From Haloarcula rubra (GTDB taxonomy: Archaea > Halobacteriota > Halobacteria > Halobacteriales > Haloarculaceae): DNA of 64,000 bases. The notes under the pieces are model-generated. The model was not told the DNA's origin and made no database searches. It saw only the letters and a program-made list of their open reading frames with translations. Of the stretch, positions 55,168 through 58,981 are shown piece by piece; position 1 is the stretch's first letter, and every line of letters starts with the position of its first letter. The position numbers were made by a program, and so were the translations under genes. Location of the stretch: contig NZ_RKLR01000010.1 in the NCBI RefSeq assembly GCF_019599465.1, forward strand, positions 1-64,000, written 5' to 3'.

Positions 55168-55246
55168 GCCTGCTCGTCTCCCCCGTCCGCGGCAGTCGCA
55201 AGGCTAAAGCAGGCCCGTGTTTATACTCTATGTAAGAAACGCAGGT

Positions 55247-56077
55247 ATGGGCACCATAGAACAATTGCAGAATATACGCCAGGGCCTCTCGACTCGAGAA
55301 AGTCGACTCCTTGCACGACTCGCTGGCGCGGGTCACCAGATCATCTCCGTCGACGACATCGAGACGACGCTGGAGGTCCCCCCAAACACCGCCCGCGAGA
55401 TTGCCTCCCGGCTCACCGAGAAGGGCTGGCTCGACCGGCTCTTCCCGGGCACGTATCTCATCATTCCACTCACTGCCGGCGAGGAGGCCGTGTACACAAC
55501 CCATGAGTACCTCATCGCGGCCCACGTCGCCGAGCCGATGTATATCGGCTACTACAGCGCCCTCAGCCACCACGGGCTGATCGAACAGGTCCCCCGGACG
55601 GTGTACGTCGTCACGCCGACCCGAGCGCAAAGCCGGGAGATCCACGGCGTCCCGTACCGCGTCACGACAGTCACCGAGCGGAAATTCTTCGGCTTTGAGC
55701 CGACATCGATCGAGGGCACGACCGTTCAGGTCAGCGGCCTGGAGAAGACGCTGGTCGACTGTGCGGACCACCCCGAGTTCTGTGGAGGCCTTCGGGAACT
55801 TGCGACCGCGATGCGTACTGCCGACGAACGGGGGTGCGACTGGGTCACTGTCGGCGAGTACCTCGAACGCCTCGACAACGGCGCTGCGACCAAGCGGATC
55901 GTCTACCTCGCCGACCAGCTCGGCATCGACCTCCCCGCCCGCGAGGAACTCGTCGCGTCTTTCACGAGTGGGTACTCGCTGCTGGACCCGACGCGGCCCG
56001 ACACCGGATCGACCGACAGTACGTATCGCCTCCGAATCAACGTCGAGCCAGCCATGCTGGAGCCGACGGAGTCCTGA
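55247..56077 (+). CDS. abiEi: AbiEi-type antitoxin/regulator of a type IV toxin-antitoxin system
   Basis: 276 residues. N-terminal winged helix (LSTRESRLLARLAGAGHQII, DDIETTLEVPPNTAREIASR, LTEKGWLDRLFPGTYLI) and the AbiEi C-terminal domain (YIGYYSALSHHGLIEQVPRT, VYVVTPTR, GLEKTLVDCADHPEFCGGLR). AbiEi proteins bind inverted repeats in their own promoter and oppose AbiEii without direct contact. Here an inverted repeat lies upstream (55128-55167) and a TTTATACT box near 55220-55227, 20-27 nt before the ATG at 55247. The toxin gene follows after 5 nt. Confidence 0.88.
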   Translation: MGTIEQLQNIRQGLSTRESRLLARLAGAGHQIISVDDIETTLEVPPNTAREIASRLTEKGWLDRLFPGTYLIIPLTAGEEAVYTTHEYLIAAHVAEPMYIGYYSALSHHGLIEQVPRTVYVVTPTRAQSREIHGVPYRVTTVTERKFFGFEPTSIEGTTVQVSGLEKTLVDCADHPEFCGGLRELATAMRTADERGCDWVTVGEYLERLDNGAATKRIVYLADQLGIDLPAREELVASFTSGYSLLDPTRPDTGSTDSTYRLRINVEPAMLEPTES

Positions 56078-56082
56078 TCGCG

Positions 56083-56886
56083 ATGATCAGTCAGGACCGG
56101 CTCCGGATTCTCGCTCGCGAACTGGGCGTTCGGCAAGGGTACGCCGAAAAGAACTACGTCAATTCGTGGCTCCTCTGGGGCATCTTCACGAGCGACTACG
56201 GCGACAACCTCCTGTTCAAAGGCGGGACCGCGCTGTCCAAGCTGTATTTCCCGCAATCGTGGCGATTCTCGGAGGACCTCGATTTTGGCGTCGAAGGGGA
56301 GTACCAGGGGTCCAAACAGGAGCTCCAAGCGGTCCTCGATACGATTGCCGACCGCTCTGGCATCGAATTCGAGATTCGCGAGCACCACGAATCCCAGCAG
56401 AACCACTATCCAACCCACTACGTCGACATCAGCATTCAGTACCGGGCCGTCCTCAGCCACCCCAACACGATCAGCATCGACGTGATGGTCGACGAGCACG
56501 TCGCCTTCGACCCTGTTCAGCACTCTCACGCGTACGAAGACGTGCCCGAATTCGACCTTCAGGCGTACAGCGTCGAGGAGATCTTCGCCGAAAAGCTCCG
56601 AGCGATCTACCAGCGCGGGGCCGCCCGTGACTACTACGACCTCTATCAGCTGCTCGAGACCGATTCGGTCACGATCAACTTTGCCGACGTGGGGCCCGCC
56701 CTCGACGCGAAGTGCAAACACGATGGGCTCACCGTTGATCTGAACGACGGACTCCCGGACGAGCAACAAGAAACGATCAGCCACCAGTGGGAGACTACGC
56801 TGCCGGACCTGACCGGTGACCCGCCGGCGTTCGAAATGGTCTGGGAACAGCTGGACACGGCAATCTCCCGACAGGGATCGTCGTAG
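56083..56886 (+). CDS. abiEii: AbiEii-type nucleotidyltransferase toxin
   Basis: 267 residues. The nucleotidyltransferase core has LLFKGGTALSKLYFPQSWRF (near 44-63) and SEDLDFGVEG (metal-binding Asp pair), with third acidic strand TISIDVMVDEHVAFDP. Further AbiEii marks are YSVEEIFAEKLRAIYQRGAARDYYD, split as EEIFAEKLRAI and ARDYYDLYQLLE (Lys and Asp-Tyr-Tyr-Asp). Members modify tRNA or other targets by nucleotide transfer and stop growth, protecting populations from phage. It is the second gene of a two-gene operon and is followed 57 nt downstream by inverted repeat IR2. Confidence 0.9.
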   Translation: MISQDRLRILARELGVRQGYAEKNYVNSWLLWGIFTSDYGDNLLFKGGTALSKLYFPQSWRFSEDLDFGVEGEYQGSKQELQAVLDTIADRSGIEFEIREHHESQQNHYPTHYVDISIQYRAVLSHPNTISIDVMVDEHVAFDPVQHSHAYEDVPEFDLQAYSVEEIFAEKLRAIYQRGAARDYYDLYQLLETDSVTINFADVGPALDAKCKHDGLTVDLNDGLPDEQQETISHQWETTLPDLTGDPPAFEMVWEQLDTAISRQGSS

Positions 56887-57323: not shown

Positions 57324-58190
57324 TCAGGCGGGTTCCCCCGTCACAACGGGCGTGACACCACCGATGGACGCTTTCTGGTCTGAGCCGTCGATCAGATCTA
57401 ACCCAACGTAGCGCTTCTCCAGTAGCCCTTCAGCGGTGTCCATGTCCATCGCGAGGATCGGTGTGGCCTCCTGGGTACTGTCGATGCAGCGGCGTTTCTC
57501 GACGAGGTCGGCCCCACCGAGGTCGATAAGCGTGTCCCAGACGCGGGCGACCGTCTGTCGATGGGGTTGTCGTCCCAGTGTACCGACGAGAGCCGTCTCG
57601 ACGTCGTCTCTGGTCATGAACACGCCACTGCCGTCAGTCCGTTCGGTGGCGAACTCCGGCCAGGCTTTGGCCACCTTGATAGCGCGGTAGGTGTTCTGTC
57701 GGTTCGATTCTTCGACGAACACGTTCTTGATTTTAGCCTCCCGGCAGTTGGCGAAGAAGTCCAGCGGCGACGAACTCGGCTCGGTCCCAGACTGGTCGGC
57801 CTCTGTCAGATCTGTGTCGGTGTCCATCTGGGCGACACTGGCGATGGCGCTCTTCGCGACTTCGTGGGTCTCTTCTTGGTCCTCTTCGAGGTCGTCCAGT
57901 CGGGACTGGTTGGTCGCCGCCTGGCCGCTGGCACTGGTCGCGATTTCGTGGGTCTTCTCTCGTTGGGCTTCGAGTTCCTCGACGCGTTCCTGCAGATCCT
58001 CGATGGTCCCGACGAGTGTCTCACAGAGCTGCACGACGAGTGGGTTGACGTCCGCGTCGTCGAGGGCAGCAAGTAGGTCCGCAGGGTCGTCGTCGGCGTG
58101 GTCGATGTCTGTTCCTTGGTGCTCAGCGAGCGCATTGTCTCGGTCGTCTGCGTCGGTGCTGTCGTCGTCGGCTGTCGTAGATCGTGGCAT
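57324..58190 (-). CDS. Coiled-coil protein with C-terminal helical/winged-helix-like part, accessory-island type
   Basis: 288 residues, ATG at 58190. An acidic low-complexity start (TADDDSTDADDRDNALAEHQ) leads to a long coiled coil (about 60-130: VGTIEDLQERVEELEAQREK, QSRLDDLEEDQEETHEVAKS), containing an imperfect internal repeat (KTHEIATSASGQ / ETHEVAKSAIAS). The C-terminal ~130 residues look globular, with TYRAIKVAKAWPEFATERTD, GTLGRQPHRQTVARVWDTLI (helix-turn-helix-like) and a final strand region. It resembles replication- or partition-associated proteins of haloarchaeal mobile elements, but I cannot name the family. Its leader contains the tRNA-like element at 58201-58247, only 11 nt from the ATG. 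Confidence 0.7.
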   Translation of the reverse strand: MPRSTTADDDSTDADDRDNALAEHQGTDIDHADDDPADLLAALDDADVNPLVVQLCETLVGTIEDLQERVEELEAQREKTHEIATSASGQAATNQSRLDDLEEDQEETHEVAKSAIASVAQMDTDTDLTEADQSGTEPSSSPLDFFANCREAKIKNVFVEESNRQNTYRAIKVAKAWPEFATERTDGSGVFMTRDDVETALVGTLGRQPHRQTVARVWDTLIDLGGADLVEKRRCIDSTQEATPILAMDMDTAEGLLEKRYVGLDLIDGSDQKASIGGVTPVVTGEPA

Positions 58191-58200
58191 TGTGACCACA

Positions 58201-58247
58201 GTGCCCGTCCCGGAATCGAACCGGGCGTCCCGACCACGGTACGGGCA
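58201..58247 (-). ncRNA. Miniature tRNA-like element (acceptor stem plus T arm, no D or anticodon arm)
   Basis: Read on the minus strand, a 7-nt TGCCCGT (58241-58247) and its exact complement ACGGGCA (58202-58208) form a perfect acceptor-type stem. Inside is CCCGGTTCGATTCCGGG (58209-58225), a perfect 5-bp T arm with a standard TTCGATT loop. Only 15 nt (58226-58240) take the place of the D and anticodon arms. Position 58201 would be a discriminator C. It ends 10 nt before the ATG of the coiled-coil gene. It could be a processed leader, a mimic recognised by tRNA enzymes (RNase P, tRNase Z), or a relic of an attachment site in a tRNA gene. Confidence 0.65.
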
Positions 58248-58361: not shown

Positions 58362-58667
58362 TCAGCCGACCCCCTCAGGTGGTGGGCAGCCCTGAATGCC
58401 GGGGCCCTGCCGGTGTCGACACTCCTGAATGGGAACCTCGAGGGTCGTGAGGTCGGCTCGACGAACGGCTTCGGTGAGCCGACGGCGGCGTGGCCGGTCA
58501 CCGATGGAGGCCGCTATCCGAAGGACTGTCTCGTGGGCGAGGTCGGCGAGGAGCGTCCCGGTGATGGTCTGGCTATCGTCGTTAGTTGCACAGACGAGGA
58601 GCCACGGATCGGACTCGTACATCTCCAGAACAACCACTTCGCCCACTTCCGGCAGCGTCGTCGTCAT
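58362..58667 (-). CDS. Small hypothetical protein encoded with a PadR-like regulator
   Basis: 101 residues. The first half is beta-rich (LPEVGEVVVLEMYESDPWLL, then VCATNDDSQTITGTLLADL) and resembles a small SH3- or OB-like barrel; the rest is Arg-rich. Its ATG overlaps the stop of the preceding regulator gene (ATGA at 58664-58667), so the two form an operon. I do not recognise the family. The C-terminal tail (QECRHRQGPGIQGCPPPEG) has low complexity. Confidence 0.6.
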   Translation of the reverse strand: MTTTLPEVGEVVVLEMYESDPWLLVCATNDDSQTITGTLLADLAHETVLRIAASIGDRPRRRRLTEAVRRADLTTLEVPIQECRHRQGPGIQGCPPPEGVG

Positions 58668-58981
58668 TGTCGTCGCCTCCCGGACCGCAGGGCGTCGGGT
58701 GGACAAACGGCCTGTAGGTCGCGAGCGTGTCGATAGAGGACGGTACGGCCGGCGTCAGTCAGTCGGTACGCGTTCGTGCGCTCGTCGAGTGGCTCGGGTG
58801 AGAGCAGGCCCAGTTCGGCAAGTTGGCTGAGGTTCTGGTACAGCCGACTGTGGTTGATGGGGTCGGCGTACCGGTCGTCAAGGTAGTCCTTCAGCGCGAG
58901 GCCGTAGGGCTCGTCGTCGACGGCGGTGATGGCTTCCAACAGGTCGCGCTGAAAGCCGGTCAGACTATGGTAGGTCGTCAT
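58664..58981 (-). CDS. PadR-like winged-helix transcriptional regulator
   Basis: 105 residues. LTGFQRDLLEAITAVDDEPY, GLALKDYLDDRYADPINHSR, LYQNLSQLAELGLLSPEPLD and RTNAYRLTDAGRTVLYRHAR follow the winged helix of small PadR-type regulators common on haloarchaeal plasmids and integrated elements. The recognition helix is HSRLYQNLSQL. It is the first gene of a pair and may control that operon and the neighbouring elements. No clear promoter box was found. Confidence 0.8.
   Translation of the reverse strand: MTTYHSLTGFQRDLLEAITAVDDEPYGLALKDYLDDRYADPINHSRLYQNLSQLAELGLLSPEPLDERTNAYRLTDAGRTVLYRHARDLQAVCPPDALRSGRRRQ

Follow-up and report, generated by a model that had tools for sequence, protein, structure and literature searches.

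Directly upstream of the gene for a 288-residue protein (P0001), the window, i.e., the whole 64-kb stretch of haloarchaeal DNA analysed here, carries a 46-nt tRNA-like element that lacks an anticodon arm. We consider the chances somewhat better than even that it is a haloarchaeal t-element by which a polycistronic mRNA is punctuated. The broader proposition is that anticodon-less mini-tRNAs punctuate haloarchaeal polycistronic mRNAs, that their excision by RNase P and tRNase Z would free single cistrons that are leaderless or carry a protective 5' stem-loop, and that the 5S rRNA leader is one case of this; we hold it tentatively, at a little short of an even chance.

A sequence-only reading of the window had described a perfect acceptor-type stem of 7 bp and an equally perfect T arm of 5 bp whose loop is canonical, located just upstream of the gene on the same strand. 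Both stems are indeed perfect in the minus-strand sequence 58247-58202 (Table 1). The 3' border of the element lies 11 nt before the ATG (58190), from which the C at 58201 is separated by ten bases, and no CCA is found 3' of this discriminator-like C. Employing a strict descriptor (seven Watson-Crick pairs in the acceptor, five in the T stem, a TTCRANN loop and a linker of 8-25 nt), we obtained a single match in the window, the element itself, and none in 60 dinucleotide-preserving shuffles searched on both strands. A match by chance is thus very unlikely, as had been claimed, and a chance hairpin is ruled out by the shuffles and by the covariation described below.

Table 1. Positions in the window of the tRNA-like element, its parts and the neighbouring genes
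Feature	Coordinates	Strand	Sequence or remark	Basis
tRNA-like element (t-element type)	58202..58247	minus		sequence, window-unique descriptor, covariation in 21 distinct relatives, covariance-model matches
Acceptor-like stem, 7 bp	58247-58241 / 58208-58202	minus	TGCCCGT / ACGGGCA	sequence
Linker, 15 nt	58240-58226	minus	ACCGTGGTCGGGACG; holds the mini D-like hairpin	sequence
Mini D-like hairpin in linker	58230..58239	minus	CC-GTGGTC-GG	CC/GG changed to CT/AG, pairing kept
T arm, 5 bp	58225-58209	minus	CCCGG 58225-58221, loop TTCGATT 58220-58214, CCGGG 58213-58209	
Discriminator-like base	58201	minus	C	position by analogy with tRNA and the 5S t-element
Short leader, element to ATG	58191..58200	minus	TGTGGTCACA	sequence
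288-residue gene (P0001)	57324..58190	minus	stop codon included	coiled coil at about residues 50-120 and winged-helix-like C-terminal region in a low-confidence model
Upstream ORF	58362..58706	minus	114 aa from TTG; about 100 aa from a later ATG	
PadR-like winged-helix gene	58664..58981	minus		PF03551, E 5.2e-10

ARAGORN found no tRNA in the 64-kb window, and with its 15-nt linker the element is not a full cloverleaf with an anticodon arm; a true tRNA was rejected. At gathering scores no Rfam family matched in the window. At loose thresholds the sole family matching the element was mascRNA-menRNA (RF01684), at 19.0 bits compared to a gathering score of 42.5 (E 0.093). These RNAs, which undergo 3' processing by tRNA enzymes, likewise have a tRNA-like body without a full anticodon arm, but they are located at the 3' ends of animal lncRNAs; this is a resemblance, not membership.

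We examined 50 loci with homologues of P0001, 30 from the same genus and 20 from other families; fragments of homologues in G125, G177 and G324 and a second piece in G000:C25 were not counted as separate loci. The element was present before the gene in all 30 same-genus loci, with its position before the ATG conserved, and in none of the 20 loci from other families, for which a covariance-model search gave the same result. The proposal that homologues of the gene share the element thus held within the genus but not beyond it, and the element is not bound to the P0001 protein family. The leader TGTGGTCACA is near-identical in most same-genus relatives and different in the most divergent ones (L021, L022, L045 and L046). 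In the window, the GTGGTC hexamer of the mini hairpin is repeated in this leader directly before the ATG (58191-58237, minus strand).

Of 24 distinct 53-nt elements, three of them set apart by the flank alone, 21 entered the covariation analysis and were aligned with MAFFT without structural information. On this alignment, the tRNA-like fold placed standard pairs in 98.6% of cells, and 7 of the 14 pairs had changed on both sides (27 cells versus 8.9 in shuffles). None of 500 shuffles reached the observed number of paired cells or the covariation score, and no slid version of the fold came near. Among the relatives, acceptor stems switch from GCCCGT/ACGGGC to GCCCAC/GTGGGT, and T stems from CCCGG/CCGGG to CTCGG/CCGAG or CTTGG/CCAAG; the outer acceptor pair is G-U in 10 of the 21 sequences. 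The paired switch within the linker was found in 9 of the 21 distinct sequences (pair 11-18), which makes the linker a small D-like arm whose loop is GTGGTC. The sequence-only reading had both the D and anticodon arms replaced by 15 nt. Since the linker hairpin is conserved with covariation, only the anticodon arm is truly missing, and the D arm is retained as a mini hairpin. A long single hairpin, which is the fold of lowest energy for the sequence in the window, was rejected: 94.3% of its cells pair on the same alignment, it covaries only at the acceptor pairs that it shares with the tRNA-like fold, and at three inner pairs it breaks in 7, 2 and 9 of the 21 sequences.

Elements of this kind recur before unrelated genes. 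A covariance model, R1, built from the 21 distinct elements matched in 23 of 32 genomes of the genus and, at E ≤0.01, in 57 of 392 genomes of the order. Matches from outside the genus were taken regardless of what lay downstream; 39 of 41 were used, two being dropped as identical G017 copies. An ATG of an ORF of at least 50 aa lay within 12 nt of 13 of these 39, compared to 6.2% of random positions. A second model, R2, built from 56 R1 matches, found matches in 99 of the 392 genomes at E 0.002; 59 matches, previously unseen and absent from the training set, served as a held-out set. Nineteen of them were 5S rRNA leaders. Among the other 40, an ATG of an ORF of at least 75 aa was found within 12 nt in 11 (null 5.0%, p 3e-6) and within 35 nt in 33 (null 12.2%, p 6e-24), p-values that are too small because the matches are partly homologous; the remaining 7 had no ORF start within 35 nt. 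At the mirror position on the opposite strand, used as a control, 3 of the 40 had an ORF start. The 33 downstream proteins fell into 14 BLASTP clusters, two of which hold 21 of them. When the proteins of the R1 set, one further gene and P0001 itself were added, the downstream proteins compared numbered 53 and formed 24 clusters.

In the held-out alignment, which was fitted to the model, pairing was 94.7%, 12 of the 14 pairs had changed on both sides and 0/500 shuffles matched this; the outermost acceptor pair was unpaired in 30 of the 59 sequences. In a phylum sample of order and other genomes together, 21 of 294 genomes had a match, 19 of them from the order, and the two matches from outside the order were true tRNA-Arg genes. 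ARAGORN called a tRNA over the element at L092 (a 97-nt Gln) and at L185 (Lys); the call at L092 is taken as false, as its homologues were not called.

The elements precede genes in two arrangements, and among the held-out matches the ATG lies anywhere between 0 and 32 nt away. In arrangement (i), to which the gene in the window belongs, the ATG follows the element after 0-12 nt; the other genes include DUF7389 genes (PF24115; L097 and L099), a family of 98-aa proteins (L093, L114, L144 and L219) and, among others, secreted proteins (L092, L095, L137 and L203). In arrangement (ii), a short GC hairpin stands directly 3' of the element and the ATG follows at 14-32 nt; the genes mostly encode Tat-type secreted proteins, one with a camelysin/TasA-like Pfam match (PF12389). 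A search for the class ii pattern in 84,980 species genomes returned 41 stretches, all haloarchaeal by their titles, and 41 of its 49 matches were followed by an ORF of at least 75 aa within 40 nt.

Many of the elements lie between cistrons. Among the 33 held-out elements with a downstream ORF, 22 were at most 60 nt from the stop codon of an upstream same-strand ORF of at least 100 aa (null 8.5%), comprising 8 of 11 in class i and 14 of 22 in class ii. The packing is tightest at L196 (1001-1836). There, an element is followed after 2 nt by an ORF whose terminal TAA forms the first three bases of a second element, and this one is followed after 1 nt by an ORF whose terminal TGA forms the first three bases of a third. 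L097 and L099 each have three elements in a row. In the window the packing is looser, with 114 nt between the end of the upstream ORF and the element.

Several other configurations were observed. The window's own genome contains three tandem genes for Tat/SipW-like secreted proteins (L173-L175; G000:C34, 82440-85841). In each of them, a separate tRNA-like element precedes the gene, and a GC hairpin stands between this element and the ATG. The third element of L196 has no ORF start nearby. Upstream of the 98-aa gene at L086/L114 and L093, there is a second tRNA-like element followed by a GC-rich stem-loop without an ORF start. At L124, L128 and L147, in three genomes, the element precedes a conserved stretch that closes with CGGCACAACCCCC, after which comes the ATG of a 28-29-codon ORF; these stretches are possibly small-protein genes or another RNA.

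The closest known relative of the element is the t-element in the leader of haloarchaeal 5S rRNA. A model built from plasmid elements retrieved the 5S leader t-elements of other haloarchaea (L116-L118 and L139), positioned flush with the 5S start, and the one at L116 carries the same CTGTGGTCAG mini hairpin as the plasmid elements. The window's own genome also has a 5S leader element (L152), with an 8-nt linker. The two kinds share an acceptor-like stem stacked on a T arm, a tRNA T loop, the lack of an anticodon arm, a short linker able to hold the CTGTGGTCAG mini hairpin and a 3' border, putative in the present case, that meets the downstream RNA. The stem/T-arm architecture of the 5S leader type is present in our elements, and its structure is conserved by compensatory change. 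They differ from the 5S leaders in preceding protein-coding genes, often between cistrons, in an acceptor of usually 6-7 bp (shorter in 5S leaders) and in that their cutting is only predicted. According to PMC4326828, which cites Hoelzle et al. 2008, the 5S t-element of Haloferax volcanii is processed by tRNase Z in vitro, and RNase P and tRNase Z act on t-elements in general. PMC4946936 describes constructs in Haloferax in which these two enzymes free crRNAs in vivo from the tRNA-like elements on either side, and further work on tRNase Z is found in PMC3296008, PMC7714728 and PMC11602121. The genome studied here encodes a tRNase Z (351.7 bits). Based on the 5S t-element, the enzymes known to act on t-elements and this gene, we think that the element is a mark for cutting within a polycistronic mRNA.

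The PadR-like gene, probably the first of the operon, and the next ORF would share a transcript that continues into the 288-residue gene. In that RNA, the 46-nt element is expected to fold into a tRNA-like body consisting of an acceptor/T-arm stack and a mini D-like hairpin, with no anticodon arm. RNase P would cut before the acceptor-like stem and tRNase Z after the base following it, a site that analogy places just 3' of the discriminator-like C at 58201. A CCA at this place would block tRNase Z; one was found near the 3' end in 1 of the 59 held-out matches. Both cuts together would free an mRNA that starts about 10 nt upstream of the start codon of the 288-residue gene, a product that would not be strictly leaderless because these 10 nt remain, and its translation or stability may be altered as a consequence. 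For genes of the same class with the ATG 0-3 nt behind the element, cutting would produce leaderless mRNAs; where a short GC hairpin intervenes, it would produce mRNAs with a 5'-terminal stem-loop. A processing signal was one of three functions offered in the sequence-only reading, beside a sensor and an attachment-site relic. It is now the best supported of them, by the 5S t-element architecture, the position flush before gene starts and the location between cistrons, with cutting as its predicted step.

Hoelzle et al. reportedly described in 2012 47 tRNA-like structural elements outside tRNA genes in Haloferax volcanii. Selected ones reportedly showed no cleavage in vitro, and no general function is reported to have been assigned to the set; start-codon position, covariation and recurrence across genera are said not to have been the subject of that study. 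Some of the 47 may be of the same kind as the present element, and if the uncleaved ones are, this would be the strongest point against general cutting. Also speaking against the punctuation reading are the missing element at the 20 loci from other families, the 114-nt gap and the 10-nt remainder in the window, and the outermost acceptor pair that is often unpaired in the held-out set.

Alternatively, the element could stay in the mRNA and control translation, a stable structure by the start codon blocking, timing or helping ribosome entry, perhaps through tRNA mimicry or coupling to the upstream cistron. We regard this as unlikely. It is consistent with the nearness of the ATG (at 0-12 nt in the 11 held-out cases above and at 13-35 nt in another 22 of the 40), with the GTGGTC hexamer just before the ATG in most relatives and with the packing of stop codon, element and ATG at L196. 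However, the constrained part is a tRNA-like body with a canonical T loop, as in the untranslated 5S leader, there is no anticodon-like arm, and spacing that ranges so widely is not what a ribosome-bound element would show; translational control accounts for the nearness of the ATG but for neither the 5S leader nor the varied spacing. Less probable still, at roughly one chance in ten in our estimate, is a regulatory role in which the element senses tRNA-processing capacity, a tRNA-binding protein or the very protein that the gene encodes. Feedback through tRNA-like leaders is known from bacteria and viruses, and the modelled winged-helix-like region of P0001 would suit such a role. Autoregulation, however, does not explain why the same kind of element stands before 24 protein clusters and 5S rRNA and is absent from the homologues in other families.

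Readings at the DNA level fared worse. An inverted repeat acting as an operator or as a replication or recombination site would be in keeping with a largely plasmid-borne gene family and a PadR-like neighbour, but we consider it very improbable: G-U is accepted in the outer acceptor pair, the T loop is tRNA-like, and the mirror control places the gene on one strand only. Next to no probability remains for an attachment-site relic, in which an integrase would have left behind the 3' end of a host tRNA. It is true that tRNA 3' ends are frequent integration sites of mobile elements in haloarchaea, many copies of the element are on plasmids, and the T-arm sequence is canonical. Yet the 24-base 3' half matched no tRNA of the genome at up to 3 mismatches; it occurred at two places, both of them such elements before paralogues of the 288-residue gene. 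A tRNA that differs at more positions, or one absent from the assembly, would have escaped this search. On the strength of the search and of the covariation of both stems we reject the relic; moreover, the 5' acceptor half is retained and the position before the ATG is kept in every same-genus locus.

As a working analogue of the punctuation that we favour, not a family to which the element belongs, mitochondrial transcripts are instructive: according to PMC8437803, mRNAs are freed there when RNase P and RNase Z cut out the tRNAs. Common to both systems are tRNA-shaped marks between cistrons, with leaderless or near-leaderless mRNAs as the product, predicted in our case. The archaeal marks, unlike the mitochondrial ones, are not tRNAs, having no anticodon arm and no adaptor role, and their excision is only predicted. 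A literature search, in which most subscription papers were beyond reach, returned no papers on such elements before archaeal protein genes. T-elements as such are already known; what seems to be new is how widely they are used before and between protein genes. Most haloarchaeal mRNAs are leaderless, and a tRNA-shaped mark between cistrons offers a directly testable answer to how the inner cistrons of operons start. If the proposal is true, two housekeeping tRNA nucleases become mRNA-maturation enzymes, the t-element before 5S rRNA is explained, haloarchaeal mRNA 5' ends can be defined with a new tool, and archaea have a pseudo-tRNA counterpart of mitochondrial tRNA punctuation.

P0001 has homologues in 49 of the 392 genomes of the order, 18 of the 49 listed being in the window's genus. 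Relatives were found in this search of genomes and none in the genome-contig, viral-contig and phage sequence sets. The gene family is largely plasmid-borne: named relatives are on Haloarcula plasmids, and 11 of 23 plasmid records are from Haloarcula. On pHH126 of Haloarcula hispanica N601 (NC_023011.1, about 44625-44576, minus strand), the element precedes HISP_RS17040 and follows two small same-strand genes, one of them likely PadR-like. The structure model of P0001 has a mean pLDDT of 63.4, and no PDB match to it was found at E ≤0.001, the best being F93 of STIV (E 0.031); a coiled coil with a winged-helix-like region is the sole reading kept, with low confidence. A promoter of its own just upstream of the element is a possible alternative source of the message; the AT profile there is flat, and a control at the PadR start (6 loci) likewise gave no peak. 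The window's genome is 4.67 Mb in size. Elsewhere in the window, at 55217-56886 on the plus strand, there are two neighbouring ORFs that seem, from their motifs, to resemble an AbiEi/AbiEii-type toxin-antitoxin pair.
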